A DNA stretch of 64,000 bases from Pseudomonas fluvialis (GTDB lineage Bacteria; Pseudomonadota; Gammaproteobacteria; Pseudomonadales; Pseudomonadaceae). Where the stretch lies: assembly GCF_002234375.1 (NCBI RefSeq), contig NZ_NMQV01000014.1:124001-188000 (forward strand), written 5' to 3'. How positions within the stretch are numbered: position 1 is the first letter of the stretch; every line of letters begins with the position of its first letter. Both the position numbers and the translations under genes were made by a program. Of the stretch, positions 19,465-37,452 are shown in pieces. The notes under the pieces are model-generated. The model made no database searches. It was not told the origin of the DNA and worked only from the letters and a program-made list of their open reading frames with translations.

Positions 19465-21015
19465 TTAGCGTTGTTCTGCTGTGGGCTGTGTCGCGTCATC
19501 GCTGCTGGCCGGCATAGGCTGCAGGGGCTGGTTGCGCCATTGCAGGGCGATCAGCAGCAGGGTCGGGATACCCAGCAGCGCGGTGGTGACGAAGAACTGC
19601 TCATAGCCCAGCTTCTCCACCAGGCTGCCGGAGTAGCCGCCGATCAGGCGCGGCAGGAGGAGCATGATTGAGCTGAGCAAGGCGTATTGCGTGGCGGAGA
19701 ACTTCAGGTTGGTCAGGCTCGACAAGTAGGCGACAAAGGCCGCAGTGGCCAGGCCGGAGCTGAAGTTGTCCATGCTGATGGTGAAGATCAGCATGTCGCG
19801 GTCGGCACCCATCCCGGCCAGTACGGCAAACAGCAGGTTGGTCGCTGCCGAGCTCAGGCCGCCGATGAACAGGATCGGCAGAATGCCGAAACGCACGATC
19901 AGCAAGCCGCCGGCTCCGGCCCCGATCAGGGTCATGGCCAGGCCGAACAGCTTGCTGATGCTGGCGATCTGTTCCTTGGTAAAGCCCATGTCGATGTAGA
20001 ACACGTTGGCCATCACGCCCATCACCGTATCGGAGAGGCGGTAGGTGGCGATCAGTCCGAGCATCAGCAGGGCCTGCCAACGATAGCGGCGAATGAAGTC
20101 GTTGACCGGGGTAAGCACCGGCGTGAGGCTGCGCCGGCCGAGGCTGGACAGGCAGAGTGCGGTGAGGATGGCGTAGAGGATGGCGCGCAGGAAAGCACGA
20201 TCCTCGGTGACCAGGCTCAGTGGGTCGCCGCCTTCGAGGGCGGCATTGAAACCGGTGTTGTACAGCTGGGTGAACAGTGCCGGCACGGAGATCAGCAGGA
20301 CAATCAGTACCAGTACCGAGAGCAACTGGCTGAGCAGGCTGTGGCCGTTGCCTCGGCTGATGTCGGCGGCGCGTTGTGGCTCGCGCATCAGCAGGCTGGT
20401 GAACAGTGCTGGCAGCATCAGCAGGGCGAACAGCAGGTAGGTACTGGACCAGGCGCTGTAATGGTAGAGACCGTCGTTGGCACCAAACCAGTCGGCAAAG
20501 TACAGCGCGCCGGCGGTGGCCAGCAGGGCCGAGACACGATAACCGGCCATGTAGCTGGCAGCCAGCGCAGCCTGGCGGCTGTCATCGGCGACCTCCAGGC
20601 GATAGGCATCGATGGCGATGTCCTGGGTGGCCGAGGCGAAGGCCACCACCACGGCGATGCCGATCAACAGGCCGAGGTTGTGTTGTGGGTCGCACAGGGC
20701 CATGCCGGCCAGCCCCGCTGCCACCAGGGCCTGTGACAGCACCAGCCAGGAGCGACGTCGCCCAAGATGACCGATCCATGGCAGGCGCCATTGGTCGAGC
20801 ATGGGTGACCAGACCCATTTGAACGCGTAGGCCAGGCCGATCAGGCTGGCATAGCCGATGGTCTGGTGGGTGACACCGGCTTCGCGCAACCACACCGACA
20901 GGGTGGAGAACACCAGCATGTAGGGCAGGCCGGCGGCAAAGCCCAGCAGCAGCAGCACCAGGGTCGCCGGGCTGGCATAGGCGGCCAGGGCGGCGCGCCA
21001 GGTATTTTCGGTCAT
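19465..21015 (-). CDS. ampG: AmpG-like muropeptide permease (MFS transporter)
   Basis: AmpG permeases import GlcNAc-anhydro-muropeptides from the periplasm for cell-wall recycling and thereby influence AmpC induction. The 516-residue protein has about 12-14 hydrophobic segments. It shows the family's early motifs GFAAGLPYMLVFSTLSVWL and AYAFKWVWSPMLDQ, and the central SATQDIAIDAYRLE signature near residue 150. The start ATG is at 21015. It is convergent with pnp. Pseudomonads can carry AmpG and the related AmpP, and I cannot exclude the latter, although the motif set favours AmpG. Confidence 0.85.
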   Translation of the reverse strand: MTENTWRAALAAYASPATLVLLLLGFAAGLPYMLVFSTLSVWLREAGVTHQTIGYASLIGLAYAFKWVWSPMLDQWRLPWIGHLGRRRSWLVLSQALVAAGLAGMALCDPQHNLGLLIGIAVVVAFASATQDIAIDAYRLEVADDSRQAALAASYMAGYRVSALLATAGALYFADWFGANDGLYHYSAWSSTYLLFALLMLPALFTSLLMREPQRAADISRGNGHSLLSQLLSVLVLIVLLISVPALFTQLYNTGFNAALEGGDPLSLVTEDRAFLRAILYAILTALCLSSLGRRSLTPVLTPVNDFIRRYRWQALLMLGLIATYRLSDTVMGVMANVFYIDMGFTKEQIASISKLFGLAMTLIGAGAGGLLIVRFGILPILFIGGLSSAATNLLFAVLAGMGADRDMLIFTISMDNFSSGLATAAFVAYLSSLTNLKFSATQYALLSSIMLLLPRLIGGYSGSLVEKLGYEQFFVTTALLGIPTLLLIALQWRNQPLQPMPASSDDATQPTAEQR

Positions 21016-21060
21016 CGACTGACAGGCCTTGTAGCAGACAGGCGGAATAAAGCGGGCACT

Positions 21061-21450
21061 CTACCCCCTGGGAGGCTGGGCATGCCAGCCATAGCGTCGC
21101 AAATCGACACGTGCGCCGAGCACGGGTACACCTTCCGCGGCCAGTCTGGCGCGCTGTTCTTGCCCGGCCAGGCTGTCCGCCGGCAGGCTCAGACGACCAC
21201 CTGCCGCAACGACGCGGTGCCAGGGCAACTGGCTGTCATCCGGCAACAGGGCCAGCTCCCGGCCTACCCAGCGTGCCGCACGGCCCAGGCCGGCCAGTTC
21301 GGCGAGCTGTCCGTAGCTCAGCAAATAGCCTTGGGGTATGCCTGCCAGCACGGCATAGAGTGCCGCGCGCCGCTCACTGGCGCTTGTTGCAGAGGCTGGC
21401 CTGCAGGCATCCTGTGCAACTTCTGACTCACGGTGATGAATTGATTCCAT
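21061..21450 (-). CDS. MGMT-family alkyltransferase-like protein (Trp in place of Cys)
   Basis: This small DNA-binding protein is of the alkyltransferase-like (ATL) group. The family signature, which in O6-methylguanine methyltransferase reads PCHRV, is PWHRVV here, so the methyl-accepting Cys is missing. Known ATLs bind O6-alkylguanine and hand the lesion to nucleotide excision repair. Helix motif IPQGYLLSYGQLAELAG and GRAARWVG are present. The only plausible start after upstream low-quality sequence is ATG at 21450 (129 residues). That codon shares CATG with the divergent DUF481 gene, so the starts overlap by two bases. Confidence 0.85.
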   Translation of the reverse strand: MESIHHRESEVAQDACRPASATSASERRAALYAVLAGIPQGYLLSYGQLAELAGLGRAARWVGRELALLPDDSQLPWHRVVAAGGRLSLPADSLAGQEQRARLAAEGVPVLGARVDLRRYGWHAQPPRG

Positions 21451-22435
21451 GTGGCGTGTGCTTTTCCTCTGCATGCTGGCCTGGCCAGCCCTGGCCGATA
21501 CGGTGTGGCTGAACAATGGTGACCGCCTGAGTGGCACCATCATACTGATGGATGGCGGCAAACTGGTGCTGGATACCACTTATGCCGGGCGAGTGGTCAT
21601 CGATTGGAAGAATATCCAGACCTTAAGTTCCGAAACGGCCCTGTTGCTGCGCGGTGAAGGGGTGACGGCTGAACGAGCACAACGCCTGCAGGCCGCGGAG
21701 CCTGGGCAGGTTCGGCTGCTTGGAGAGACTCCGCGGACCCTGGCTCTGCGTGATATCAATCGTGCTGTGCCGCCACGGCAACTGGTCGATGACCTGGTCT
21801 GGGAAGGCAATCTCGACTTAAAGCTGGATATCGAGCGCGAAGCGGACGACACCGATGAGCTGAAGATCAAGGGTGATACGCGTATTGAACATGGCCCGTG
21901 GCGACATCTGCTCAAGGGTGAGTTGGAAGACAAGCGTAAGAATGATGCGCAGACCAAGGATAACTGGGAGCTGGAGTACGACCTCGATCGCTTCTTCGCT
22001 GAGCAGTTGTACTGGCGAAGCAGCCTGGACTGGCAGGAGGATGCCATGGAAGCCCTGCGCCGCCAGCGTAGCATCGGCATGGGGCCCGGCTATCTGTTCT
22101 GGGACGATGAACTGGGGCGCTTCGACATGACCCTGATGCGCAATCGCTTTCGTCTGGAAGGTGAGCAGCGTGCATTGACCTTTGATACCTGGTCGCTGGA
22201 GACGGATTACCAACGCCTGCTGTGGGGCACGCGTGTCGAGCTCTACGGCAATGCCAAGCTACAGATGCCGGACATCCAGCAGATCGACTATGTGCTGGAT
22301 GGCGAAATGGGCTTGCGCTATCGCCTCAACAGCTGGGCTCGCCTGAGCTTGTTGTACGAGCTGGACCAGGTGCGCGGCCTGGGTGTGACCCAGTCGCAGC
22401 GGCGCTACCTGATTGGCCTGGGGGTCGGCTGGTAG
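21449..22435 (+). CDS. DUF481 outer-membrane-type protein
   Basis: This is a 328-residue exported protein. The N-terminus MWRVLFLCMLAWPALA-D is a short signal peptide with an ALA cleavage site. The first mature part (DTVWLNNGDRLSGTI.. to about residue 60) resembles the SH3-like repeat often seen before DUF481. The rest is an Asp/Glu/Arg/aromatic-alternating region ending in aromatic Trp (GLGVGW), typical of an outer-membrane barrel. Function is unknown (the YdiY family is related). An in-frame TGA at 21437 rules out a farther upstream start. Confidence 0.8.
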   Translation: MWRVLFLCMLAWPALADTVWLNNGDRLSGTIILMDGGKLVLDTTYAGRVVIDWKNIQTLSSETALLLRGEGVTAERAQRLQAAEPGQVRLLGETPRTLALRDINRAVPPRQLVDDLVWEGNLDLKLDIEREADDTDELKIKGDTRIEHGPWRHLLKGELEDKRKNDAQTKDNWELEYDLDRFFAEQLYWRSSLDWQEDAMEALRRQRSIGMGPGYLFWDDELGRFDMTLMRNRFRLEGEQRALTFDTWSLETDYQRLLWGTRVELYGNAKLQMPDIQQIDYVLDGEMGLRYRLNSWARLSLLYELDQVRGLGVTQSQRRYLIGLGVGW

Positions 22436-22449
22436 AGCCGGCGGAGAGG

Positions 22450-22476
22450 CACGGTGCCTGCCAGGCAGGCACCGTG
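22450..22476. terminator. Convergent terminator between DUF481 gene and thiolase
   Basis: A perfect 13-base palindromic stem, cacggtgcctgcc / ggcaggcaccgtg, with a minimal loop lies in the 48-base gap between convergent genes. There is no T run on either side. Confidence 0.6.
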
Positions 22477-22483
22477 AAAGGTC

Positions 22484-23659
22484 TTACAGCAGCTCGATGG
22501 CGACTGCGGTGGCCTCGCCGCCACCAATGCACAACGAAGCTACACCACGCTTGCCGCCTTTGCGTTGCAGCGCATTGATCAGCGTGAGGATGATCCGCGA
22601 GCCGGTGGAACCCACCGGATGCCCCTGGGCGCAGGCGCCGCCGTAGACGTTGACCTTAGCGTGATCCAGGCCATGCTCGCGCATGGCCAGCATGGTGACC
22701 ATGGCGAAGGCTTCGTTGATCTCGAACAGGTCGACGTCGTCCTTGCTCCAGCCGGTCTTCTTGAACAGGTTGCTCATGGCGCCGATCGGCGCAAGGGTGA
22801 ACTCGCTCGGGTCCTGGCTTTGCGTGGCATGGGCGACGATCTTCGCCAGCGGCTTGAGGCCACGCTGGGCGGCTTCCTCGGCGGTCATCAGCAGCAGGGC
22901 GCTGGCACCGTCGGAGATCGAGCTGGCGTTGGCTGCGGTGATCGTGCCGTCTTTCTTGAAGGCCGGCTTGAGGGTCGGAATTTTGTCCAGGTTGGCGGTC
23001 AGCGGTTGTTCGTCATCCTTCACCAGCACCTCGCCCTTGCGGCTGGTGACGGTGACCGGGACGATCTCGCTGGCCAGTTCGCCGTTCTGGATGGCGGCCT
23101 GGGCGCGCTTCAGCGACTCGATGGCGTAGGCGTCCATGTCCTCACGGGTGATCCCGTACTGGTCCGCGGTTTCCTGAGCGAAGGAGCCCATCAGGCGGCC
23201 GCTGCGGGCATCCTCCAGGCCGTCGAAGAACATGTGGTCCTTGATCTCGCCATGGCCCATGCGCAGCCCGGTACGGGCCTTCTCGATGATGTAGGGCGCG
23301 TTGGACATGCTCTCCATGCCGCCGGCGATCATCACGCGGTTGCTGCCAGCCTTGAGCAGGTCATGGGCCAGCATCACGGCCTTCATGCCCGAGCCGCACA
23401 ACTTGTTGATGGTGGTGCAGCCGGTGGCGGCCGGCAGTCCGGCATTCAGGGCCGCCTGGCGCGCCGGGCCCTGCTTGAGGCCGGCGGGCAGTACGCAGCC
23501 CATGATCACTTCCTCGACGTCGCTGGCGGCGATGCCGGCGCGGGCTACCGCTTCACGAATGGCCAGCGCGCCCAGTTCGACGGCCGGCACACTGGCCAGG
23601 CTGCCTTGGAAACCACCCATGGGGGTGCGTGCACCGCTGACGATGACGATATCGGACAT
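22484..23659 (-). CDS. Acetyl-CoA C-acetyltransferase (thiolase)
   Basis: Thiolase II family enzymes reversibly condense two acetyl-CoA to acetoacetyl-CoA. The 391-residue length is typical. The acylated nucleophile is Cys88 in NKLCGSGMKA. The histidine motif reads GGACAQGHPVGSTG and the second active-site Cys lies in LCIGGGEAT; NEAFA is also present. It is probably atoB/phaA-like. Substrate range cannot be read from sequence. It is transcribed alone; no oxidoreductase or CoA-transferase partner is adjacent. Confidence 0.92.
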   Translation of the reverse strand: MSDIVIVSGARTPMGGFQGSLASVPAVELGALAIREAVARAGIAASDVEEVIMGCVLPAGLKQGPARQAALNAGLPAATGCTTINKLCGSGMKAVMLAHDLLKAGSNRVMIAGGMESMSNAPYIIEKARTGLRMGHGEIKDHMFFDGLEDARSGRLMGSFAQETADQYGITREDMDAYAIESLKRAQAAIQNGELASEIVPVTVTSRKGEVLVKDDEQPLTANLDKIPTLKPAFKKDGTITAANASSISDGASALLLMTAEEAAQRGLKPLAKIVAHATQSQDPSEFTLAPIGAMSNLFKKTGWSKDDVDLFEINEAFAMVTMLAMREHGLDHAKVNVYGGACAQGHPVGSTGSRIILTLINALQRKGGKRGVASLCIGGGEATAVAIELL

Positions 23660-23981
23660 CTGTATAACCTCTCGTTGAGTCAGGGCCGTGGTGGGCCGAT
23701 GGGCGATTTTAGCCTGTGACCGAAAAGCGCCATAGAGTCATTTTGTTCGACGAGTGTCGCATGGCCGTTTTAGTGATGAACTGGCAGGTGGTGATCAGTT
23801 TTTCGCGCCTTATTCGGCCCAGGGCGAACGGCTAGCGTAAAATCGCAGCGCATTGATTCTGCGCCCGGCAGCCTTCGGCCGATTTTGTCGCGAGACTGCT
23901 CCTGTGCTTGCCGAATATTGCGCGTGAATCGTCATTGCACAACTTTCCTGCGCCGAACGCGCACGAACTACTTTGCTCTGC

Positions 23982-24218
23982 ATGGCGAATCTTCAAAGTG
24001 ATCACCAAGAGGCGAAGGCCTGGGGCTATATCGACAAGCGTGATCGGGCATGCGATGCCGGCATCTGGATTGGTGTCGAGCCCTGTTACAGCGAAGAGCA
24101 AGGCAAGGCCCGGGCTGCTGAGCTAGAACAAGCTGATCCCAGCCATGAATACACGGCTGAACCTTTTTTGGAACCGCCGACATGGATCAGCCGCAAGGCA
24201 TGCTCTCCAGATGTCTGA
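23982..24218 (+). CDS. Possible small hypothetical protein
   Basis: A 78-residue reading frame starting MANLQSDHQEAKAWGYIDKR. The composition (acidic, low Arg) is more protein-like than that of antisense shadows, and it does not overlap any assured gene. There is no convincing ribosome site before the ATG, and I recognise no family. It may be a remnant or not a gene. Confidence 0.3.
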   Translation: MANLQSDHQEAKAWGYIDKRDRACDAGIWIGVEPCYSEEQGKARAAELEQADPSHEYTAEPFLEPPTWISRKACSPDV

Positions 24219-24297
24219 TGGCCAAGGTCGGGCAGTTTTTGACGCCAGACGGCGGTTGACGCAATGGCGTAGCTGCCTACAATCGTCAGCAACACGG

Positions 24298-24346
24298 CCC
24301 CTGTCGGTTGATGCGCTCCGGCGCTGAGATTGCTCAGGGGTTTTTT
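24298..24346 (+). terminator. Candidate terminator near island left edge
   Basis: cccctg (24298-24303) pairs with cagggg (24335-24340), followed directly by six T. The 31-base loop contains a smaller gctccggcgctgag structure. It could serve the small frame ending at 24218. Confidence 0.5.
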
Positions 24347-24420
24347 ATTGCCTGCGATTTATGATCGTTCCCACGCTGAGGCAGTCGAACTGCCCACGCC
24401 CTGCTTGGGAGCTATTAACT

Positions 24421-24449
24421 ACGGCAGGCGCAAACCAAGCGCCTGCCGT
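24421..24449 (-). terminator. Hairpin downstream of the Pro/Gly peptide gene
   Basis: Perfect 10-base inverted repeat acggcaggcg / cgcctgccgt with a 9-base loop, 11 bases past the stop of the leftward 24460 gene. The leftward side lacks a clear T run, so termination would be weak. Confidence 0.5.
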
Positions 24450-24459
24450 ACCCACGGCG

Positions 24460-24597
24460 TTACTTCGATTTAGCCGGCGGGTAATTACCGCGACCACCGC
24501 CTGACTTGTTGCCCGTGGTGCTTGGCAAGTTAGGCACTACCGGGCGTGGGGCAGGCTGAGGGGCAGGGCGGCTTGGGCTTTGCGGTTGTTTGCTCAT
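24460..24597 (-). CDS. 45-residue Pro/Gly-rich peptide of unknown function
   Basis: A small basic peptide beginning MSKQPQSPSRPAPQPAPRP, with a Gly/Asn-rich C-terminal part containing TTGNKSGGGRGNYPP. AGGAAG lies upstream of two possible starts (24597 and 24603); 24597 gives better spacing. It is the last gene of a leftward operon, 29 bases after the glycine-rich-domain-like gene. No signal peptide or membrane segment is visible and I know no function. The low-complexity N-terminus with a more distinctive tail suggests the tail is the functional part. Its position in the operon supports a real gene. Confidence 0.6.
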   Translation of the reverse strand: MSKQPQSPSRPAPQPAPRPVVPNLPSTTGNKSGGGRGNYPPAKSK

Positions 24598-24626
24598 GGT
24601 CATGCTTCCTGAATAAGTGAATGGGT

Positions 24627-25130
24627 TTACTTGCAAGCGCCTTCGACGCGGCAGGCGCAGCTGGTCGGAACGTGGCACGGGTGATCTTTGCAGCGCATGG
24701 CCTGCGCCTCGCTGCCACCGCCCGGATAGGCACCAAAGTGCTTTTCATACAGCGCGACTGTTTGAGCAAAAGCGCTCTTCAGCTCCTGGTAATCGTCCTG
24801 ACCGTAGATGCCGAAGTAGGGGTAGTGGTCGATAAAACGGCCGAACACTTGCTGGCAGTCTTCGCGGTAGGCACGGGTGTCCAGAATGTGTGCATGCCAG
24901 ATCGCATCCACTGTCTTGCTGGGTACCAATGCCACGGATGGATAGAAGCGCTTGAGGGTCAGAAAGCGGCGGTATTCCAGCTCGGCCATATCCCACTCAG
25001 TTGCCGACATTTCAGCTTCCGAAGACTCGGTGTACTTATACTTCAGGCGTTTGAAGTCCAGGCGGCTGACGTTCATCTCCAGGCCGTTGGCCGCCAGCAG
25101 CGGCTGATTGAGCGATACAAGTGCAGTCAT
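24627..25130 (-). CDS. Glycine-rich-domain-containing-protein-like (GRDP/DUF1399-type) protein with Cys/His-rich tail
   Basis: The 167-residue protein carries the family hallmark VDAIWHAHILDTRAYREDC (residues about 74-92), followed by an aromatic FIDHYPYFGIYG stretch. The family is named from plant glycine-rich-domain proteins and has no defined biochemical role in bacteria. After GGG at 137-139 the last 21 residues hold Cys147, Cys152, Cys158, Cys160 and Cys166 plus His150 and His153, which could bind metal. The start overlaps the previous gene stop by 4 bases. It is encoded directly before the Pro/Gly peptide. Confidence 0.75.
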   Translation of the reverse strand: MTALVSLNQPLLAANGLEMNVSRLDFKRLKYKYTESSEAEMSATEWDMAELEYRRFLTLKRFYPSVALVPSKTVDAIWHAHILDTRAYREDCQQVFGRFIDHYPYFGIYGQDDYQELKSAFAQTVALYEKHFGAYPGGGSEAQAMRCKDHPCHVPTSCACRVEGACK

Positions 25131-25438
25131 GGATGTTTCTCCTGTGATTGAAGGTTGCAGGCCTTGATAGGCCGCCTTCGCTTCAGCTCACGTTCGAAAC
25201 ACTGACGACTGACCAGGGCGCACGGTGCGTAGCCAGTGGCGGTTATCTGATAGAGCAAGCGCCAGTCGCTGCCAAGCTTGAAGCGCAGTAGCCCCTCGCG
25301 GCAGCGCACGCGCTTGCCGCCCAATGCGGTAAAGGGCGTGCCAGTGTGCAAGGCTTGGTCAATGCGCTGGGCTTTAGCCTGGTGGCAGCTGCTGACCTGA
25401 TGCGGACAGCGGGCGAGAATGGATTGAATGGTGTGCAT
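25127..25438 (-). CDS. Unassigned 103-residue protein, possibly RelE/ParE-like
   Basis: The start ATG at 25438 has GGAG placed 6 bases upstream. An earlier in-frame start at 25489 is less likely. The segment RCREGLLRFKLGSDWRLLYQI resembles the Arg-rich beta-hairpin (..GdyRliY..) of RelE/ParE-type toxins, but the match is by eye only and no antitoxin-like gene is obvious. The protein has several Cys and a basic C-terminus. It overlaps the following GRDP-like gene by ATGA, so the two are translated together. Confidence 0.5.
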   Translation of the reverse strand: MHTIQSILARCPHQVSSCHQAKAQRIDQALHTGTPFTALGGKRVRCREGLLRFKLGSDWRLLYQITATGYAPCALVSRQCFERELKRRRPIKACNLQSQEKHP

Positions 25439-25494
25439 GACAGGCTCCGTTGTGATGACGGAGCCAGTGTTGATTTGTGGATTCCACAAGCCGC

Positions 25495-26262
25495 CTAGTT
25501 TTTTCGAAGTAAATCGAGCAGGTCGTCGAAGTCCTTGGCTTCTTCGTATTCACGGATGATCAGCTCGCGGTATTGCAGCAGCAGTTCATTCTGCGTGTGT
25601 ACCTCGCGGGCTTTCTCATAAGCCTGCTGCAGATCCCCGCTGAGGTAATGCGCCATCATGCTGTCGCCCAAAGAGAGCGCTGCTGTCTGCGCTGCCAGAG
25701 CTTTCAGCAGGTTGCCTTGCAGATGGCCGAGGCCCATTTGTGGGAGTGTATCGGCAAATGGATTGGGCAAGGCTTCTTCATTGAGCTTGGCAAGCGGAAG
25801 GCGTTCAAGAAAAACCAACAACTCCTGCCTGAGCAAACCAAGTCCTGCAAGTGACTGACGCTCCAGGAAAAGATGCCTGGCCCAATCGACCAGAGGCTGA
25901 CGCTTTGCGTTTGGTTTGACCAGCTCAAGGACGACCCTCGGCTCACCAAATACTCCCTGGAGCAAAATGGCATTCCACAACAGGATGATGTGCTCAGGAT
26001 TGATACGCACACGGTTGCGGCCTTCCTTGCCGCCCACGATGGGCGTCCAGTCCAGATGGATCGCCCGGTATTTGCTGCGGTCAGGACGGCGATCGACCTC
26101 GTCCTTTTCTTTGATGGAGGGGCTGAGGGCATTCACTAACGTATTGAGGCTGTTGAGCAGTTTGCCATGCTGGCTTAGAGGGCTTTGTAAGCCAATTCTT
26201 TTGCACAGTAGGTCATCGTATACCTGTGCCAGCTCGGGCCAATGGCGTGGGTCAGATTTCAC
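25495..26262 (-). CDS. Unassigned 255-residue protein
   Basis: I do not recognise a family. The start is GTG at 26262, inside the end of the upstream gene (11-base overlap), with GGAG upstream. The protein is soluble by appearance, Leu-rich and largely helical. The C-terminal third (from about residue 185) is rich in Ala/Glu/Gln and looks coiled-coil-like, ending DFDDLLDLLRKN. A central segment, WTPIVGGKEGRNRVRINPEHIILLWNAIL, is the most distinctive part and would serve for a search. It is the third gene of the operon. Confidence 0.65.
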   Translation of the reverse strand: MKSDPRHWPELAQVYDDLLCKRIGLQSPLSQHGKLLNSLNTLVNALSPSIKEKDEVDRRPDRSKYRAIHLDWTPIVGGKEGRNRVRINPEHIILLWNAILLQGVFGEPRVVLELVKPNAKRQPLVDWARHLFLERQSLAGLGLLRQELLVFLERLPLAKLNEEALPNPFADTLPQMGLGHLQGNLLKALAAQTAALSLGDSMMAHYLSGDLQQAYEKAREVHTQNELLLQYRELIIREYEEAKDFDDLLDLLRKN

Positions 26263-26593
26263 AGGAGTGCTCCAGCAGTGCCCTCACTGACGTGCGCTTG
26301 GCAAAAGACACAGGCATTTCTGCCACCCTGCTGGCCTGGCTAAACCAGTCACGCCTGGCGCAATGATTTTGGCGTCGGTACTCATCCACTACCCCCATGC
26401 AGTAACCGGCGCGCAGCGCTTCGGACAAACTGGTCGATATGCCGGCCAGCAAATTCTGCTGATCGCGCTTGGCATAAATGCCGACCAACTCCTTGCAACT
26501 CTCAATTAAGTACTCTGGGTCATTGTTGGCCTGCGCTAAAGGGCTTAGCAGGCTGGTTAGCAGGCAGCAGATGCTCAGTGCTTTCAGGTTCAC
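26252..26593 (-). CDS. Periplasmic Rap1a/Tai-like protein
   Basis: This 113-residue protein has a signal peptide (MNLKALSICCLLTSLLSPLAQA) and four mature or near-mature cysteines (33, 65, 78, 111) that could form disulfides. The core AGYCMGVVDEYRRQNHC resembles the CLGYV-type motif of Rap1a/Tai proteins, a family that includes type VI secretion immunity proteins. The resemblance is modest, and there is no nearby effector I can identify. The GTG start at 26593 has an excellent AAGGAGG 8 bases upstream. It overlaps the membrane-protein gene by 4 bases. Confidence 0.6.
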   Translation of the reverse strand: MNLKALSICCLLTSLLSPLAQANNDPEYLIESCKELVGIYAKRDQQNLLAGISTSLSEALRAGYCMGVVDEYRRQNHCARRDWFSQASRVAEMPVSFAKRTSVRALLEHSCEI

Positions 26594-27138
26594 AGGCTGG
26601 CCTCCTTGGCCAAGGGGGTAATCTCGGGTTCGACGCGCGTTTGCACGCTCGCAGGCACTGGGGCTTGAGTTGCCGGAGTACGCGGAACACCAAGAAAGAT
26701 CGCCAGTAATACCGCACCGAAGGTTACGATCTTGTCGATGGGGTGCTCTTGGGGTATCAGCCGCAAGAGTTCTTCAGGGTGCTTGTCAAGTTGAAGCACT
26801 GCTGCGATTGCACCGAGTACTACAAGACCTAAAACGAACATCACGCCTTGTGCGATCAGCAGGCGGTGCAAGCCGTGCCAGAAGCCCAAAGCAAAGTGCG
26901 AGGCGTAATGGATGTGTCGCCACAGCAAGAGCGCCAACAGCAGCATAAACAGCCATTCCAGGGGGGCAAGATCAGCCAGGCCTTCGCCGTATTCAAAAAT
27001 AGTCCAGGGCAGCGATGCCAGCATAAACAGGCCGATCAGCCATAAGCTGACGGTTTTCGACCAGCCCAATAGCCAGCACAGACCTTTGCTAAGGCCGATA
27101 TCCAGTTTGCCAGCCAGAGAGAGTTCGGGGTGTTGCAT
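26590..27138 (-). CDS. Unassigned inner-membrane protein with about four transmembrane segments
   Basis: First gene of the leftward operon, 182 residues from ATG at 27138 (AGGAG 6 bases upstream). Hydrophobic segments lie at about residues 18-45, 55-75, 95-120 and 138-155. A soluble Pro/Glu-rich tail ends LAKEASL. The sequence FHYASHF-type aromatic patch HIHYASHFALGFWHGLHRL lies between segments 2 and 3 and is His-rich. No family is recognised. Upstream in-frame ATGs exist, but the intervening sequence has no membrane or family character. Confidence 0.6.
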   Translation of the reverse strand: MQHPELSLAGKLDIGLSKGLCWLLGWSKTVSLWLIGLFMLASLPWTIFEYGEGLADLAPLEWLFMLLLALLLWRHIHYASHFALGFWHGLHRLLIAQGVMFVLGLVVLGAIAAVLQLDKHPEELLRLIPQEHPIDKIVTFGAVLLAIFLGVPRTPATQAPVPASVQTRVEPEITPLAKEASL

Positions 27139-27172
27139 AGGTGCTCCTTGCATGTGTTGTGTGTAACCACCC

Positions 27173-27295
27173 TTACCGGTGGCGGCTGAGTGTGATGCGT
27201 ACCCGCACCGATGGCTTGTCGGTGCAGGTGCAACGGTCGTCTGAATTAACGTAACGTGACTTGAAATTGTGCCCGGCAGCACCTACTGTTCGCAC
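27173..27295 (-). CDS. Possible 40-residue reading frame in the gap between the two island operons
   Basis: From a GTG at 27295 the frame reads MRTVGAAGHNFKSRYVNSDD and continues with RCTCTDKPSVRVRIT. It lies in otherwise unexplained sequence between the restriction operon and the membrane-protein operon and ends 34 bases before the next start. The ribosome site is poor. The frame extends upstream into the 27372 gene, so part of it may be a shadow. No family recognised. Confidence 0.25.
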   Translation of the reverse strand: MRTVGAAGHNFKSRYVNSDDRCTCTDKPSVRVRITLSRHR

Positions 27296-27371
27296 CAGCT
27301 CATCTACCAGCCTTCGGGTGTCAGCGTAGAAGGAGTAACGGCCCCGTCCTCCTGCGGAGGGCGCGGCCAGC

Positions 27372-27857
27372 CTAATTCCCCTCGCTATACCGCTCCCAAC
27401 GCTTCTCCAGTTTTCTCTGCTGATGCTCCCGCTCAACCGGGTAGGCCGTCCAGGGCAGGATGTAGTCCTTGCGCTCGTCCAGTACCACCAGGTATTCGGC
27501 TTCGGCAAACCAGATCAGCACGCGATGACCTGAACCGTTTGGCTCGCGCCAGACCTTGAGCGCGGCGTCTTCAGTATTTTCGATAATCGGCCTGGGCCAG
27601 CGGATGCGCTCACAACGTCTCAAGTCGGGCAGACGTTCTGCTTCGTCGTTGCCTTCGGAAATCATGTGCCAGAAGGTGGCTTCCCTACCCTGGATGATCG
27701 GGTGGCGTTTCAAGCTCAAGCGCTTACCGGCAAACACAGGTTTCGAAACAACGAAGTCGGCACAGAAGATCTGGTAGATGGCGTCCAGGTAACGAGCAAA
27801 ATCGCCCCCGTAAGCCTTCAGCTCCTCCAGTGGTGGCAGCCACCCCGGCAGGCTCAT
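27372..27857 (-). CDS. Unassigned 161-residue protein, possibly a BECR-fold nuclease-like accessory
   Basis: Last gene of the restriction operon, overlapping the DUF3800 gene by ATGA. Distinctive segments are TFWHMISE (about 63-70), PDLRRCERIRWPRPIIEN (about 77-95) and a C-terminal strand-rich part with YLVVLDERKDYILPWTAYPV then a basic helix. The order of basic/aromatic strands ending in a T-A-Y motif recalls Barnase/EndoU/ColicinE5/RelE (BECR) nuclease families. That is inference from pattern and not a secure assignment. There is no signal peptide or membrane segment. Confidence 0.6.
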   Translation of the reverse strand: MSLPGWLPPLEELKAYGGDFARYLDAIYQIFCADFVVSKPVFAGKRLSLKRHPIIQGREATFWHMISEGNDEAERLPDLRRCERIRWPRPIIENTEDAALKVWREPNGSGHRVLIWFAEAEYLVVLDERKDYILPWTAYPVEREHQQRKLEKRWERYSEGN

Positions 27858-28561
27858 ACCCCAGCGCTCCCGTTCCAGAGGAACAGGTTGAACTTGGACT
27901 CACGCAGCAGCGTGTTCTGCTTGAGGTTGTAGTGGCTGCGCTCGCGGATACGTTCGATCAGGCGCTGCTTGGCTTCACTGCCGGCAAGCCCGCGATGCAG
28001 ATAGGACAGCGCGCCGATGAGCAAGTCAGCCAGCTGCAGTTGCTCCGCCTCATGGGAGTGGATGCGTTGCACCCGGCGAATCACCCTGCGCGAGAAGTCA
28101 TAGGCGTTGTTGGCCAACACCTCATGCAGCTTGGCGACCTTCTCATGCCCTAGGGTGTCCTTGATGTCGATGTAAACGTGATAACCGGCATCTGGCTCGA
28201 AGATGGTCTTGAGCATCGAGAAGTACATCTTGTAGTACCAGTCATCATGGCTCTGCCGGTACTGCTGATGATTGAGGCGCGCCTTGTCGGCCACGATCAG
28301 GGCGCGGAAATGCAGGTCATCGTCATCGAAGAAATAGTCGATGCAGTCCAGGTAGAACTGCAGCTTGGTCGCACCGACCTTGGTCCACTTGATCTCGAAA
28401 TCCGCCGGCAGCTTGTGCCTGACCTTGATTTCACGCAGACGTTGGGCAATCTCCAGACGCTTGGCCTCCGGGCACCAGACGGCCCCCAGCACCATGGCCT
28501 TCTGACCATCGTTCTCCAGATGGCAGGATTCATCGCAGTAGATATTGAAGGTTTCACTCAT
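27854..28561 (-). CDS. DUF3800 domain protein
   Basis: This 235-residue protein starts at ATG 28561, which overlaps the hsdS stop by one base. It shows the DUF3800 pattern: FNIYCDESCH at the N-terminus, EIKWTKV, YIDIKDT near residue 130, and SHEAEQLQLADLLIGAL near 170. These acidic positions suggest an RNase H-like nuclease fold, although no activity has been established for the family. DUF3800 genes are often found in mobile or defence contexts. Here the gene is translationally coupled to a type I restriction operon. Confidence 0.85.
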   Translation of the reverse strand: MSETFNIYCDESCHLENDGQKAMVLGAVWCPEAKRLEIAQRLREIKVRHKLPADFEIKWTKVGATKLQFYLDCIDYFFDDDDLHFRALIVADKARLNHQQYRQSHDDWYYKMYFSMLKTIFEPDAGYHVYIDIKDTLGHEKVAKLHEVLANNAYDFSRRVIRRVQRIHSHEAEQLQLADLLIGALSYLHRGLAGSEAKQRLIERIRERSHYNLKQNTLLRESKFNLFLWNGSAGV

Positions 28562-30237
28562 CACGCCACCGCCTGCTCGACCAGGGTGCTGGCCAGTTGT
28601 TCGTTGAGTTGGCGGGCCTGGGTCAGGCGGGTTTTCAGTTGGTCGCAGAGGGCCATGAGTTGGTCGACTTTGGCGACGATTCGGTGTTGTTCTGCGAGGG
28701 GCGGAAGAGCAATTGGATAGTCATTCATTGCTTTGAGACCAAGATTCTTGATTGTGGTCCCAGTCGCACTCTTCAAGGCATATTCCATAAAGCCAGGCGC
28801 TTCAATCAACAATCTAACAAAGTGCTTGGATATCCCGCCAGCAAGATTGAAGTAGCAGGCGCTTTTCCCTAGGACGACTTTTTCAGAATTGTAAAATGCA
28901 ACATTGCCGATAGTGCCGTTGATTGAAACTAAAATGCTTTGTTCATCTAAGGGTTTCTTATGTTTTGAATACTCACTCTCACTAACAGTCTTGGTTTCCG
29001 GTTTGATGACTATCTTGCCATCCTTTAAGTTGTTGCCATTCACAAAATGGTATGCGCCGTCTTGGCTGTAAATCGGCGTGCCGTGCAGGCCATCACCTAG
29101 CTGCCTAGTTATCTGCGAAAGCCTCAACCACCTCCAACCTTGAGGCGATTCAAATCCTGCTTCTTCTGTAGAGACAGGACTTACAGGCTTTGGCTTTCTA
29201 ATTTTTCCCTCTGAATGAAGCTGCGCAATCTCTTTAGCAATTTTCCCGACTAACTCATCGGCCGGCTCATCGTTGGAATCTTGCGGCACCAGTTTGCCCA
29301 TTACGGCCAGTTGCAGCAGGGTTTGCTTGAGGGCGTCGATGCTGGATTCGGTGGTGAACAGCGTGTGGAAGTGTTCGGCCAGGCGTTGCCAGCTCTGGGC
29401 AAAGTCTTCGGCGTCGCTGGCCTGGGTCAAACTGTCGAGCAGTGCCTGCACCAGTTGGGCGTGGGCGCTTTCGGCGTCGGCCTGCTGGGCTTCCAGGCGG
29501 TCGCACAAGGCCATCAGTTCATCGACTTTGGCGACGATGCGGTGTTGTTCGGCGAGTGGAGGCAAGACGAGAGTAAGTGCCTCTAGCTTGCCTTTCGTCA
29601 CATGCTGAAGTCCTACTCCGCCGTGAGCTTTAGCAATCAGCTCTTCTAAGCGAGTATTAATTGCCAGTTTTAGAAACTTATCGAAAAATGCGTCGCCTAC
29701 CTGAAAGCAAGAAAAAATATGCTGGTTTAAAGCCGCTTTTCCTCGTTCCCAAATGAATGCCCCGAATGAAGTTCCAGGTGTGCCTGACCAGCTGATGAGT
29801 ATTGTCCCTGTGTCGATGACATGGCGATCATCGACAGTATCTGGGTCGCAATAGTTAAACGGCGCATCTGGTTTATTCAGGTTTTGGATTCTGACAATAG
29901 GAAGGCCCGCAGCTATCCATTCTGTTGGCTTGAATGCGCGCCCATTGATCATCTCAAGACAACTCCCAAGTCGCACCCAGCTCCAGCTCTGAGGCACGGA
30001 GAATGGTTGCTCCTTGTCATTAATCTCAGCCTGCTGCTTGCCCTTTTTACCTGCGACAACTAACCGTGCCTTTTCCTCAGCAATCCGCTTTAGCAACTCA
30101 CTGGCCGGTTCATCACTCGGATCTTGCGACACCAACTTGCCACGCACCGCCAATTCCAGAATCAGCTCACGCAGCTTTTTGATGCCATTCGGTGCGCCGG
30201 CCAGCAACGGCAGGTTGTCGGTGAGCAGCGCCGTCAT
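28561..30237 (-). CDS. hsdS: Type I restriction-modification specificity subunit HsdS
   Basis: HsdS sets the DNA target of both methylation and restriction. The 558-residue protein has the two-fold layout: target-recognition domain 1 (about 70-210), a long conserved helical spacer, target-recognition domain 2 (about 355-500) and a terminal conserved helix. The repeated element LPPLAEQHRIVAKVD occurs after each recognition domain. The DNA of the recognition domains is clearly more AT-rich than the flanks, as expected for exchanged modules. It overlaps hsdM by ATGA. Confidence 0.95.
   Translation of the reverse strand: MTALLTDNLPLLAGAPNGIKKLRELILELAVRGKLVSQDPSDEPASELLKRIAEEKARLVVAGKKGKQQAEINDKEQPFSVPQSWSWVRLGSCLEMINGRAFKPTEWIAAGLPIVRIQNLNKPDAPFNYCDPDTVDDRHVIDTGTILISWSGTPGTSFGAFIWERGKAALNQHIFSCFQVGDAFFDKFLKLAINTRLEELIAKAHGGVGLQHVTKGKLEALTLVLPPLAEQHRIVAKVDELMALCDRLEAQQADAESAHAQLVQALLDSLTQASDAEDFAQSWQRLAEHFHTLFTTESSIDALKQTLLQLAVMGKLVPQDSNDEPADELVGKIAKEIAQLHSEGKIRKPKPVSPVSTEEAGFESPQGWRWLRLSQITRQLGDGLHGTPIYSQDGAYHFVNGNNLKDGKIVIKPETKTVSESEYSKHKKPLDEQSILVSINGTIGNVAFYNSEKVVLGKSACYFNLAGGISKHFVRLLIEAPGFMEYALKSATGTTIKNLGLKAMNDYPIALPPLAEQHRIVAKVDQLMALCDQLKTRLTQARQLNEQLASTLVEQAVA
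28641..28707 (-). repeat. hsdS internal direct repeat, copy 2
   Basis: A 67-base segment encoding the conserved AEQHRIVAKVDQLMALCDQL helix. It is a close match to 29510-29576 in the same orientation, with about ten differences. Repeats of this kind allow recognition-domain exchange. Confidence 0.8.
29510..29576 (-). repeat. hsdS internal direct repeat, copy 1
   Basis: Partner of 28641-28707, encoding AEQHRIVAKVDELMALCDRL after the first recognition domain. The two copies are 869 bases apart, about one half-HsdS unit. Confidence 0.8.
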
Positions 30238-31709: not shown

Positions 31710-33125
31710 TTACACAGTTAATTCAGGTGAATGGCGACCTTCACGGGCCGGCAATGTGAGGCGGGACGTATCGAAGCTCAGCGGCACGCTGGTATTGGCT
31801 ACATCTTCGAGAAAGTCCGGGTAACGGTAGTCACGTGCGAAGTAGGAAAAAGACTTCAGCTGGTAATAGTGCTCGGCATCCATGTAGCGCTGGCTGATTT
31901 CACGGGAAACTGCCAGCGCCCGCGCATGACTCATCTGTGGGCTGAGATTCAGGTGGTTTACGCCGAAACAAGGCGAGTGGCTGAGGGATGCACCAAAGGC
32001 TGAAAGCTCATTCAAATAACTTTCGCTCTCTTGCGGCCAGCCATAGACGATAACCGGCCCGACCGATACGCCGTGGAACTGATCCTTGCGTGCATCCAGC
32101 CAATTGAGCGTTTCAGCCAGGCTATCGTCAGTTTCGCCGGCAAACATCAGCAGGTTCACTTTGACCTTGATGCCATTGACGGCACAGGCCTCCAGCAGGC
32201 GGGAGGCTCTGTCCAGGTAACCTTGTGGTTTCTTGCTTTTCTGCATCCTCTGTAACTGCTGTAGGCTGGCGCTCTCCAGCCCCAGATCAAGTACTGTGAG
32301 GCCGGTTGCGGCAAGGTCGGCCATCAGTTCCGGGCGAATGTTGTCGACGCGGCCTTCACTGCGCCAGCGCAGCTCCAGCTCGGCCTCTGACAAGGCCTCG
32401 GCAAAATCGGCGACCCAGCCCTTGGTCGGCACAAACATCGAGGCCTCAAAATACGGTGTCATTTCAATCAGGTTGTCTCGCAGCAATGTCGCCCCCAGCT
32501 CCTCGACAACCTGACTGGCAGGCTTTAGCGGTTGCAGGCGCTCGCTGCGCTCCTGACAGAAGCTGCAGCCCATGCCGCAGCCGCGTGAAACTTCAATGCT
32601 GGGCTGGTAGAGCTCACGCTGATGTAGCAGCCGGTAATCCAGTATCGAACTCTGTGATGCCGGGCTGCCCAGCAATAACCCGGTGGCATTTCGCGTCCCC
32701 CCCAGCAACTCGACAATTTGCCACTCCGCCAGACCGGCGATCACCCGATCTGCCAAGGGCAGCAGAGCCTTGAGGCGCTCCGGGTTATCCCCCACTACCC
32801 AGCGACCACCGACAATAAAGCGCAGCGAAGGGTACAGCGCTTTTGCCTGGCGCATGAACAGATCCGCCCACTCCACGGCATAGAAGCTGGGCAGGGAAAT
32901 AAGGACAGGTAAGGACTTATCCAGCCCCAGATTTTCTGCTTTCAGTAACAGTGATTCCGGACGATCGAAGTGACCGTGGAGCACTACAGGATCAAACCCG
33001 TGGCGCTGCAGCACCGTGGCCAGCGAGAGCAGGCCGTAGTTCAAGTATTGGTGGCGACGGTTGATTGGGGTATCGGCCTTTTTAACTTGTAGCTGCCCCG
33101 CGCTGATGCAAATCACCCGGCTCAT
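31710..33125 (-). CDS. B12-binding-type radical SAM protein inside the hsd operon
   Basis: This 471-residue protein has an N-terminal Rossmann-like region (about 25-150, resembling cobalamin-binding domains of class B radical SAM enzymes, without a clear DxHxxG motif). The radical SAM cluster motif is Cys183-x3-Cys187-x2-Cys190 in [15 protein letters not shown]. Downstream barrel motifs include LDLGLESAS and [14 protein letters not shown]. The start overlaps the hsdR stop by ATGA, and hsdM follows 6 bases after its stop, so it is cotranslated with the restriction genes. The substrate is unknown. Nothing in its sequence suggests a tRNA methylthiotransferase: no TRAM domain is visible. Confidence 0.9.
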
Positions 33126-35494
33126 TGGGCATGCTCATAGATGGCTTGCTCAAGATCGCGTACTGCCGCCGTAAAGGAAGGCCTCCCGCCAAACGCCTTG
33201 ACCAGCTCGATGGGCGCACCGATCTGGCTGAAGGGGTCGAGCTGGAGGATCTTGATGTCCTCGATGTGCTCGATGCCGGTGTCGGCGTACTTATCCAGCA
33301 GCGCTTCCAGCACCTGGCGGGCTGCACCGGAATATTTGGCGAAGTAGTTGCGCTTCTTGACCTGCTCGGCGCGCTCCTTGCGCGACAGCGGCGGCTGGTC
33401 GAAGGCGACGTGGCAGATCAGATCGAACGGATCGAGCGGCTTGCCCTGCTTCTTTTCCACTTCTTCGGCCAGGGCCTCCCACATCACGCCCTGGGCAGCC
33501 ATTTCGTCGATGATGGCCTTCTTCTGCTCGGCATCACTCCAGCGGCGCAGGAAGTCATCCAGCGAGGCGAACTGCTTGTGCACGCAGGCACGGGTGTAGT
33601 CGTGCAGCGACTCGGTGATCAGCTTGCCGTCCGGCCCGTAGTACTGCACGCGTTCGGCGATGACGTAGATCGGCAGGTTGTCGATGACGTACTTGATGCG
33701 CTTCTTGCCGTCTTGCTCGCCGGTGAACTCAACATCTGTGGGCTGATCGGGCATGCCTGCAGTGATGCCGTCTTCATCGGCCAGCGGGCTGTCCGGTGGC
33801 ACGGGGGACTCATCGCCCTCGGGGGCGTAGATCACCACCGGGTCACCGTCGAAGGCCGGGTCGGCAAACAGCTCGGTGGCCTTCTTGAAGTCCATGATGG
33901 TGAACCAGTACTTGCCGAAGTCTTCGTTGATGCGGGTGCCGCGACCGATGATCTGCTTGAACTCGGTCATCGACTTGATGTGCTGGTCGAGGACGATCAG
34001 CTTGCAGGTCTGGGCATCGACGCCGGTGGTCATCAGCTTGCTGGTGGTGGCGATGACCGGGTAGCGCTCTTCCGGGTTGATGAAGTTGTCCAGCTCGGCC
34101 TTGCCTTCCTGATCGTCGCCGGTGATGCGCATGACGTACTTGCGGTTCTCGGCCACCCGCTCGGGGTTGAGGTTGACCAAGGCCTGGCGCATGCGCTCGG
34201 CATGGTTGATGTCGTCGCAAAAAACAATGGTTTTCTGGAACGGATCGGTGGCCTTGAGGAACTCGGTGACCTTCTGCGCGACCAGCTGGGTACGCGCCTC
34301 GATGACCAGGGTGCGGTCCATGTCCTTGAGGTTGTAGATGCGGTCTTCGATCAGCTCGCCGTTCTTGTCGAGCATGCCCTTGGGCGGCCGCCAGCCTTGC
34401 AGGTCTTTGTCGAAGTCGATGCGCACCACTTTGTAAGGGGCAAGAAAGCCGTCTTCGATGCCCTGCTTGAGGGTGTAGCTGTACACCGGCTCACCGAAGT
34501 AGGTGATGCTGGAAACGTCCTTGGTTTCCTTCGGCGTGGCGGTGAGGCCGACGTGGGTGGCGCTGGAGAAGTAGTCGAGAATCTCGCGCCAGGCGGAATC
34601 CTCAGCGGCGCTGCCGCGGTGGCATTCATCGATGACGATCAGGTCGAAGAAGTCGCGGGAGAACTGCTTGTAGACGTTCATCTCCTCTTCAGCGCCGGTA
34701 ACGGCCTGATAGAGCGACAGGTAGATCTCGTAGGAGGTGTCGATCTGGCGTTTGGCGATCTTGGTCATCGCCTGGCCGAAGGGTTTGAAGTCGTTGTTCT
34801 TGGTCTGGTCGACCAGGATGTTGCGGTCGGCGAGGAAGAGGATGCGTTTCTTCTGCCCGGACTTCCACAGCCGCCAGATGATCTGGAAGGCGGTGTAGGT
34901 CTTGCCGGTACCGGTGGCCATGACCAGCAGCACGCGGTCCTGCCCACGCGCCACGGCTTCAACCGTGCGGTTGATGGCGTTCATCTGGTAGTAGCGCGGC
35001 ATGCGCCCGGAGCCGTCGTCGTAGTAAGGCGCGGCGACCTTGTGCCGGGCCTGGTCGTCCAGCCCCTTCCACTGGCAGTAGCGTTGCCAGAGCTCATCGG
35101 GGCTGGGGAACTCGGCGAGGCTCAGCTCGCTTTCGACCTGAGCGCCAGTGCCGCTGCGGTCATGGAACAGAAAGCCATCGCCGTTGCTGGAGAACACGAA
35201 GGGCACATCCAACGCCTCGGCATAGCCCAGCGCCTGCTGCATGCCGGAGCCAATCGAGTGCTTGTTGTCCTTCGCTTCGATGATGGCGATGGGCAGGTTG
35301 GCCTGGTGGTAGAGGATGAAGTCGGCGCGGCGCGATTCGCCCCGGCTGTGGAGCTTGCCGCGGACGATGATGCGGCCCTTGGTAAAGCTGACTTCCTCGC
35401 GCACCTGCTTGTGCATATCCCAGCCGGCTTGCTGAATGGCCGGAGCGATGTATTTGCTGCAGATGTCCCGTTCGGAAAGCGACTTTTTGTCCAT
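33122..35494 (-). CDS. hsdR: Type I restriction enzyme motor/endonuclease subunit HsdR
   Basis: HsdR translocates DNA and cleaves unmodified DNA. The 790-residue protein is of the shorter EcoEI-like class. The PD-(D/E)xK nuclease site is Asp58 with Glu73-Ala-Lys75 (IIEAKD). The SF2 motor shows Walker A ATGTGKT (near 200) and motif II DECH in [10 protein letters not shown]. Motif III is TATPKE, and the C-terminal helicase lobe contains [15 protein letters not shown]. The C-terminal third is helical and would contact HsdM/HsdS. It is first in a six-gene operon. Confidence 0.97.
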
Positions 35495-35644
35495 AACCCC
35501 AATTCCCTTTCAAGCCGGCCTGGTCGCTCCATTCCGGTACTGCTGATTGTGCTCGATTGGCGTAAATGTACCTTGTTTGGCGTTGATTGGGGCTGGCGGG
35601 GCGGTCATTTTAGCGGCTTACGCTACGACTTCTTTTCTGAGTGC

Positions 35645-36757
35645 TCATAGCAGTTTTTTAGCTAAATCTTCCGTCCTCGGGTGGTAATAGCGCATCAGCA
35701 TCCGTGTGTCTTGGTGTCCGGTGATTTTGGTCAACTCATGCAGCGGGAAAATTTCGGCCAGGCGCGAGGTGGCTTCGTGGCGCAGGTCATGAAAGCGCAA
35801 ATCCATCAGAAACGGATCGTCGCTGATGTGTTTGTCGATCTTGGCCTGAGAAAGCTTTTTCTGTTTGAGGTGAAGGCTTAGCCCTTCTGCGTAGGCGCTG
35901 CGTGCATCGACGATGGCGTCCGCGAAAGCCTTGGTGATTGAGTCCGGCCGGCTTTTAAAACAGCGGCCATCGTCGCGTTTGGTGAGACTTTCCAGTATCT
36001 CCACCGCCTTGCTGGATAGGGGGACGCCACGGGCGGTTCCGTTCTTGGTCATGGGCAGTAGGGCAACCCGCTTGGCCAGGTTTACGTTGCTGCGCAGCAG
36101 GCCGGCTATCTCGCTTCGGCGCATCGCCGTTTCCACGGCGAAGGCGACGATCTTCGGCAGCTCGGCCGAGCGCGAGTAGCGGTAAATCATTTCCAGCTCA
36201 TCGAGGTGCTCGCAAATCAGTACGCCGTCGCGCAGTGTCCAAACGTCTGCGCTCAAGATGCGTCTATCTCTGGCGTCATCAACACTGGGCTGGCGAATCA
36301 GCTCCACGGGGTTGCTCAAGGACTCCATACGCCACTCTTTGCGAGCGATGGTGAAGACATGAGAAATCAAAGCAAGCTCGCGACGGACTGTGGCCGCTGC
36401 CAGCCCCTCTGCGAGGCGTTGATCGCGGTAGCTGGCCATGTCGGCGCCACGGATACTGGCGAGTGATCGTAGGGCCAGCGGATGGCGTTGCAGAGCCTGG
36501 ATGCGGGATAGCTCGGAGTCGCTACTGCGCTTCTTGCTAGTAACCTGCTCGGCGTACATCTCCAGGGCTTTGGCGAAGGAGGTTGATTCCGCTTCGTTAC
36601 GGCTGACGAAGACGCCGGCGTCCATTTCGCGCTCGATCATCGTTGCCCAAGCTTTCGCTTCAGCCTGGGTGTTGAAAGTGCGGGTCTGTTGGGGCCACCC
36701 TTTACGCCTGATTTGGGCGTGCCACTGGTATGGACCTTTCTTCCTGATCGTCGCCAT
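35645..36757 (-). CDS. Tyrosine recombinase/phage-type integrase
   Basis: This integrase probably mobilises the accessory island. From ATG 36757 the product is 370 residues (GTG 36769 is the alternative start). An N-terminal AP2-like arm-binding region (ATIRKKGPYQWHAQIRRKGW..) and a core-binding domain (about 60-165) precede the catalytic domain. That domain carries Arg in AMRRSEIAGL, Lys in TKNGTARGVPL, HDLRHEATSR and GHQDTRMLMRYYH with the Tyr nucleophile. All catalytic positions are present. It lies at the island right edge, 38 bases from the core MBL gene, pointing inward. Confidence 0.93.
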   Translation of the reverse strand: MATIRKKGPYQWHAQIRRKGWPQQTRTFNTQAEAKAWATMIEREMDAGVFVSRNEAESTSFAKALEMYAEQVTSKKRSSDSELSRIQALQRHPLALRSLASIRGADMASYRDQRLAEGLAAATVRRELALISHVFTIARKEWRMESLSNPVELIRQPSVDDARDRRILSADVWTLRDGVLICEHLDELEMIYRYSRSAELPKIVAFAVETAMRRSEIAGLLRSNVNLAKRVALLPMTKNGTARGVPLSSKAVEILESLTKRDDGRCFKSRPDSITKAFADAIVDARSAYAEGLSLHLKQKKLSQAKIDKHISDDPFLMDLRFHDLRHEATSRLAEIFPLHELTKITGHQDTRMLMRYYHPRTEDLAKKLL

Positions 36758-36807
36758 CGTCAATCGCACTGTGCCAAAAATGTGCCATTTATCCTACAGG
36801 AATACCC

Positions 36808-37452
36808 ATGGAACCCGCAAAAGCCGCGCTAATACGCGAAACCTTCCCCGTTGGCCCTTTGCAGTGCAACTGCACGATCATCGGCGACCCTGTGACCAAG
36901 AAGGCCGTAGTGGTAGATCCGGGCGGCAATCCTGAGCTGATCATGGCGCGTCTGGAGGCTCATGGGCTGAAGGTGGTGAGCATCATCCACACCCACGCCC
37001 ATCTCGATCATTTTCTCGCTTCGGGGCAGATGAAGGAGAAGACCGGCGCGACGCTGCACCTGCACAAGGAAGACCAGTTCCTCTGGGACAACCTGGAAAT
37101 GCAGTGCCGCATGTTTGGTGTGCCTTACACGCCGGTGCCGGCACCGGATCAGTGGCTCAGTGATGACGAGGAGCTGGCCTGCGGCTGTGGTGTGGCGTTG
37201 CACACGCCGGGTCATACGCCGGGCTCGATGAGCTTCTGGTTTGCCGATGCCAAGTTGCTGATTGCCGGTGACACGCTGTTCAAACGCGGTATTGGTCGCA
37301 CGGATTTGTGGGGTGGCGATTACTCGACCATCGAGCGCTCGATTCGCCAGCGCCTGTATTGCCTGGACGAGGATGCCACCGTGGTCACCGGGCATGGCCC
37401 GGATACCCGGCTGGGCGACGAAATGCGTGACAACCCCTTCGTGCGTGCCTGA
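36808..37452 (+). CDS. GloC/YcbL-like MBL-fold hydrolase (glyoxalase II type)
   Basis: The 214-residue metallo-beta-lactamase-fold protein has the metal motif THAHLDH (near residue 57-63). It also has HTPGHTPGSMSFW, the GDTLFKRGIGRTDL motif and the final VVTGHGPDT. Length and motif order match the YcbL/GloC type II glyoxalase group, which hydrolyses S-lactoylglutathione. It is the first core gene to the right of the integrase. The integration junction should lie just upstream, in 36758-36807. Confidence 0.88.
   Translation: MEPAKAALIRETFPVGPLQCNCTIIGDPVTKKAVVVDPGGNPELIMARLEAHGLKVVSIIHTHAHLDHFLASGQMKEKTGATLHLHKEDQFLWDNLEMQCRMFGVPYTPVPAPDQWLSDDEELACGCGVALHTPGHTPGSMSFWFADAKLLIAGDTLFKRGIGRTDLWGGDYSTIERSIRQRLYCLDEDATVVTGHGPDTRLGDEMRDNPFVRA

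Follow-up and report, generated by a model that had tools for sequence, protein, structure and literature searches.

Type I restriction operons are already known to embed defence genes, as illustrated by DarTG2, which sits between hsdS and hsdR of such an operon at a junction that its authors call a potential recombination hotspot (PMC12255303). A second point of comparison is OxsB, which together with OxsA serves oxetanocin A biosynthesis and makes an antiviral nucleotide; it works with an HD phosphohydrolase, and its substrates are deoxyadenosine phosphates (PMC13331322). Here, we describe a 64,000-nucleotide stretch of the Pseudomonas fluvialis genome (contig NZ_NMQV01000014.1, positions 124,001 to 188,000; hereafter the window), in which a gene for a radical S-adenosylmethionine (radical SAM) enzyme lies between hsdR and hsdM. 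Like DarTG2, this gene is a separate module inside an hsd operon; unlike DarTG2, it occupies the hsdR/hsdM junction, encodes a radical SAM enzyme and has an antiviral role that is predicted. The gene is embedded defence cargo in the sense that it lies inside a defence operon, at a site that holds alternative defence-type genes in relatives, and it is not a required R, M or S part of the type I core. Our preferred reading, held tentatively and at somewhat less than an even chance, is that this alternative cargo is an independent antiviral enzyme, which would make a phage-poisoning deoxynucleotide analogue by cobalamin-type radical SAM chemistry.

A search with the window's HsdM across 398 genomes of its family, the Pseudomonadaceae, gave 37 matches at 1e-180, and 30 of these loci were fetched (HsdM identity 68-100%). 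The space between hsdR and hsdM holds no gene in 12 of the 30 loci (gaps of 57-221 bases), HNH-nuclease genes in six, an AbiEii-type pair (PDC-M21) in four, the radical SAM gene in three, including the window, a DUF3800 gene in two and an Mrr-type nuclease (PDC-S02) in one; another locus has an IS110 gene with hsdR out of view, and one more could not be scored. The radical SAM gene is thus absent from 25 of the 28 HsdM loci with a scored slot. The edges of the slot were compared in 10 of 13 stretches, leaving out two radical SAM loci (L086 and L088) and the IS110 locus (L087). In all ten of these longer relatives, which have no radical SAM gene, DNA similarity to the window breaks off 57-64 bases ahead of the hsdR stop codon and is regained no more than about 15 bases from the start of hsdM, while the HsdR protein tails stay alike despite the loss of DNA similarity; in the two Pseudomonadaceae relatives that carry the radical SAM gene, similarity runs unbroken through the junction. 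The HsdM closest to that of the window (97%) has an HNH gene in its slot. Because the nearest HsdM carries different cargo in 18 of 29 rows, and the cargo labels need 15 changes on the HsdM tree against 15.8 when shuffled (as low in 63 of 200 shuffles), the cargo appears to move independently of HsdM. The state of having no gene may be somewhat clustered on that tree (7 changes against 9.5 shuffled, as low in 38 of 500). Nine plasmid records match the operon, none over more than 80% of its length; of the three compared at the junction, two (L092 and L093) lack any gene there, and in the third, L091, a hypothetical gene and an HNH gene precede hsdM. A close-relative search found no Escherichia coli relatives of the Enterobacter copy.

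Several other features of these operons deserve mention. The slot HNH genes of L049, L052, L057, L058 and L065 share their C-terminal HNH part and are less alike or different on the N-terminal side, as if domains had been swapped within the cargo. A second slot lies at the hsdM/hsdS junction, with an insert of about 1 kb that is 84-94% alike in L008:12840-13900, L081:7080-8110 and L083:6740-7770 and encodes one frame of about 320 residues or more; its HPFADGNKR motif is presumably Fic-type. Directly 3′ of hsdS, two operons of the radical SAM type carry an AbiD/Abi_2 gene (L003:14691-15704, the copy scanned, and its homologue in L008).

An earlier note on this DNA had described hsdR, the radical SAM gene and hsdM on one strand, with an ATGA overlap towards hsdR and 6 bases to hsdM, and the coordinates bear this out: the end of hsdR and the start of the radical SAM gene share ATGA, and 6 bases separate the radical SAM TAA from the hsdM ATG. 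Its gene set was correct for these three genes and too short at the far end, as the operon runs in the order hsdR-radical SAM-hsdM-hsdS, all on the minus strand among the window's open reading frames, and continues past hsdS with a DUF3800 gene and a gene for a 161-residue protein, joined by 4-base overlaps:

31710..33125, minus strand: radical SAM gene, the cargo; 471 residues, ATG start, TAA stop
33122..35494, minus strand: hsdR of the EcoAI/FtnUII family, by profile match to NF046051
30234..31703, minus strand: hsdM, scoring as a type I subunit
28561..30237, minus strand: hsdS, with two Methylase_S stretches, scoring as a type I subunit
27854..28564, minus strand: DUF3800 protein, PADLOC model PDC-M04A (334 bits)
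27372..27857, minus strand: 161-residue protein, PADLOC model PDC-M04B (241.5 bits)
35645..36769, minus strand: tyrosine recombinase, located 150 bases 5′ of hsdR

HsdR matches NF046051 at 1218 bits (cut-off 550). The stretch 27372-28564 is a two-gene PDC-M04 candidate module sharing 4 bases with hsdS, which makes it the operon's second accessory module. Comparing 35600-37000 with 18000-28000 for direct repeats at island ends gave a single 14-base repeat, and a promoter and terminator scan found no more sites than in shuffled sequences.

The hsdR-radical SAM-hsdM order recurs in two more Pseudomonadaceae genomes (79 and 86% identity in the radical SAM protein) and in Azonexus (58%), so it is shared by four species in two families rather than being peculiar to one strain, and this recurrence argues that the arrangement is more than chance. 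In Azospira (L010), where the hsdR frame is reduced to its start and last ~50 codons, an open radical SAM gene comes next and a gene for a SEC-C/Sel1 protein after it; the locus yielded nothing related to HsdM or HsdS of the window. The swappable slot and this hsdR remnant are the reasons for rejecting the enzyme as a required restriction subunit. A tree of 64 rows separates a kinase-linked clade (kinase in 22 of 23 rows) from a second clade, which takes in the restriction-linked rows together with others; two rows on long branches fall in neither clade, and the restriction label needs two changes. This tree omits L019 and L033, in which the radical SAM gene spans two frames, as well as L022 and L035; loci reached twice were counted once (G570 = L008, G392 = L002, G663 = L016, G141 = L007). 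A distant relative (26%) on a Nostoc plasmid (L042:2341-16844) is accompanied by a small P-loop kinase-like ATPase, a DNA methyltransferase and two helicases.

The protein itself belongs to the radical SAM superfamily by both motif and profile: the C-x3-C-x2-C motif that the earlier note had called intact is present as C183, C187 and C190, and the Pfam Radical_SAM family (PF04055) matches at 2.2e-13 (51.2 bits against a cut-off of 29.5). The cluster cysteines are invariant across 86 family sequences, which have 62 invariant columns in all; set A1 comprises 24 of 120 proteins among the matches listed, from 448 found. The Pfam B12-binding match falls below threshold (3.9e-4). A structure model with a predicted local distance difference test score of 92 places the following parts:

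Residues about 1-145: cobalamin-type Rossmann domain, N-terminal (from the model)
Residues about 170-350: radical SAM core (from the model)
C-terminal part: conserved, with the motif LKSFSYFxRDY (from the alignment)

The check for a cobalamin domain that the earlier note proposed thus came out positive in the model, whose N-terminal Rossmann domain is of the kind that marks cobalamin-dependent radical SAM enzymes. The combined fold, a confident prediction, lies near AprD4, OxsB and MgmA, with OxsB as the top Foldseek match; the second structural comparison took Foldseek's own matches, and families missing from that list may still resemble the model. From the predicted fold, the enzyme probably uses cobalamin.

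The neighbours of family members elsewhere provide the clues to a substrate. We examined 41 loci, 40 of them with a usable frame (fragment L035 was dropped), and counted partner genes within 6 kb; the counts are lower bounds because contig ends cut several loci. A divergent thymidylate (dTMP) kinase stands beside the radical SAM gene in at least 23 of the 40, and a SAMHD1-like HD protein (8) or a Dgt deoxynucleoside triphosphohydrolase (dNTPase; 3) in at least 11, one SAMHD1-like locus, L019, being without the kinase. By sequence, these HD partners match structures of the SAMHD1 family and of Dgt, the L036 kinase passes the dTMP kinase cut-off, and the kinase arrangement is found with annotation on four plasmid stretches. 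A second, unlinked dTMP kinase is present in both kinase-type genomes checked, and a single copy in each of the four restriction-type genomes. Behind the kinase, at least 15 of the 40 loci encode a large TPR protein, some 910 residues long. Its P-loop motif and its FxSxx_TPR match, weak at 47.5 bits against a cut-off of 300, suggest a STAND-type sensor; the copies scanned (L036:6533-9271 and L012) have no PADLOC match. Relatives of hsdR and hsdM adjoin the radical SAM gene in 4 of the 40. Another possible partner, a SEC-C/DUF4145 protein with TPR or Sel1 repeats, adjoins it in L004, L010 and L033.

We infer a defence role from the other contents of the slot and from the partner genes, and a deoxynucleotide substrate from how often dTMP kinases and dNTPases stand beside the gene; that the product would be poisonous is argued from the parallel with OxsB and viperin. 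The enzyme would convert a deoxynucleotide, perhaps thymidylate, into an analogue by cobalamin-type radical SAM chemistry, and the analogue would poison phage DNA synthesis. As the window's operon has no dedicated kinase, the host's own nucleotide kinases would complete the product there, while the restriction operon would provide expression and joint transfer of the cargo, which could act as a second layer when a phage evades restriction. Among the options listed in the earlier note, a second antiviral activity agrees with this predicted role. The wider claim, which we regard as rather doubtful, is that this cobalamin-dependent family makes thymidine-type nucleotide poisons as anti-phage immunity, acting alone as cargo of type I operons and, in modules on plasmids and in genomes, alongside a dedicated dTMP kinase and a dNTPase of SAMHD1/Dgt type, a viperin-like strategy by OxsB-type chemistry.

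Several observations weigh against the reading as an antiviral analogue-maker. Phage protection, substrate and chemistry are all predictions. Neither a kinase nor a dNTPase adjoins the gene in the restriction-linked loci, and the case for a nucleotide therefore borrows from relatives at 41-47% identity; 12 of the 40 loci have neither partner genes nor hsd genes, and some of the radical SAM genes adjoin ordinary ones (gatB in L006, a cytochrome gene in L007). The enzyme family is rare, found in 4 of 398 Pseudomonadaceae genomes, 2 of 369 of the class and 1 of 398 of the phylum (E 1e-40; the window's genome included each time). The label of defence gene for the other cargoes derives from the names of their families and from candidate models, and PADLOC gives no match for the DUF3800 gene of the slot. 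The HsdM tree is poorly resolved, with 4 of 26 inner branches well supported, which makes the scatter of cargo on it weak evidence by itself. Finally, the nearest folds include modifiers of proteins, small molecules and tRNA, so the fold does not single out a substrate. That breadth bears on the possibility that the enzyme is defence cargo acting on RNA or protein (a tRNA or a translation factor, in the manner of MiaB, RimO or MgmA) and not on a free nucleotide; a modifier of that kind would have no obvious need for the recurrent dTMP kinase and the two kinds of dNTPase, and we consider it unlikely. Another small-molecule product, for instance a signal to switch on the large TPR protein in loci that have one, would suit the 15 loci in which that putative STAND-type sensor follows the kinase, but the other 25, the window included, show no TPR partner (some are cut by contig ends), which leaves this version quite improbable.

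Two further explanations deny the gene a defence role of its own. A metabolic or selfish passenger, inserted at the slot by chance, would account for the relatives that adjoin ordinary genes; against it, the identified slot contents other than IS110 are nucleases, AbiEii-type pairs and DUF3800 genes, three Pseudomonadaceae species keep an open frame at 79-86% identity, and the invariant columns persist over 86 sequences, and we judge such a passenger distinctly improbable. The earlier note had read the tight coupling as a function shared with HsdR and HsdM, the enzyme being a working part of restriction that modifies DNA, HsdR or HsdM, or changes target specificity. The ATGA coupling, the 6-base spacing and the order kept in Pseudomonadaceae and Azonexus speak for this, but the slot is empty or filled with other genes in 25 of 28 scored HsdM relatives, hsdM of this kind is not beside the radical SAM gene in 36 of the 40 family loci (several cut by contig ends), and the Azospira gene adjoins an hsdR remnant. 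Homologues thus seem to occur mostly outside restriction loci, the very outcome that the note had said would make a dedicated role unlikely, and a working part in restriction is the least probable of these readings, and a very improbable one.

If the preferred reading of an independent antiviral enzyme is true, cobalamin radical chemistry joins viperin as a bacterial route to antiviral nucleotide analogues, and new antiviral nucleosides might be sought in this family. Of practical use is the hsdR/hsdM junction itself: its alternative defence-type genes can be read off like a list, and its uncharacterised contents are therefore ready candidates.

Among named systems, the nearest kind is the PADLOC candidate PDC-M51 (PDC-M51A and PDC-M51B), which from family matches appears to pair a radical SAM enzyme with a small kinase, the models themselves carrying no description. 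Five of six family radical SAM proteins scanned match PDC-M51A at 19.5-38.9 bits (20.7 for the window protein, none for L026), and all three kinases scanned match PDC-M51B at 33.7-45 bits. These scores indicate distant kin, and no dTMP kinase-type gene lies within 6 kb of the window's radical SAM gene; membership in PDC-M51 was rejected on the weak scores and the lack of an adjoining PDC-M51B-type kinase. A phage origin was rejected as well, since phage records gave no match to the radical SAM protein at E 1e-5 and viral contigs a single distant one (24%). Full-text literature searches found neither the family nor a radical SAM gene at hsdR/hsdM named, and a preprint on embedded defence genes (10.1101/2024.01.29.577857) may list such genes.

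Viperins are not known to carry a cobalamin domain, and they pair with kinases. The earlier note had held the window protein not to be viperin-like, in keeping with the lack of a pVip match at E 0.01 (one weak match, L006 at 19.4 bits, among the six proteins scanned), and its model and viperin align over the radical SAM core only, on which ground viperin identity was rejected. By their entry titles, AprD4 acts on paromamine and MgmA on protein glutamine, unlike the predicted activity here, and they are 16% and 20% identical to the window protein. Enzymes of nucleotide metabolism have precedents in immunity: validated defence systems are reported to include a thymidylate synthase and a 5-hydroxymethyluracil kinase, with other nucleotide enzymes in predicted ones (PMC13092281), which makes a nucleotide-based defence less odd. 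With OxsB, whose defining reaction is a ring contraction of deoxyadenosine phosphates, the window model shares the cobalamin-type Rossmann and radical SAM fold, whereas identity is about 15% and OxsB has an additional N-terminal domain. The HD partners of the family are SAMHD1/Dgt-like by sequence, a possible difference from OxsA. Taken together, the fold, the OxsB precedent and the pairing of viperins with kinases suggest a nucleotide analogue as the product.
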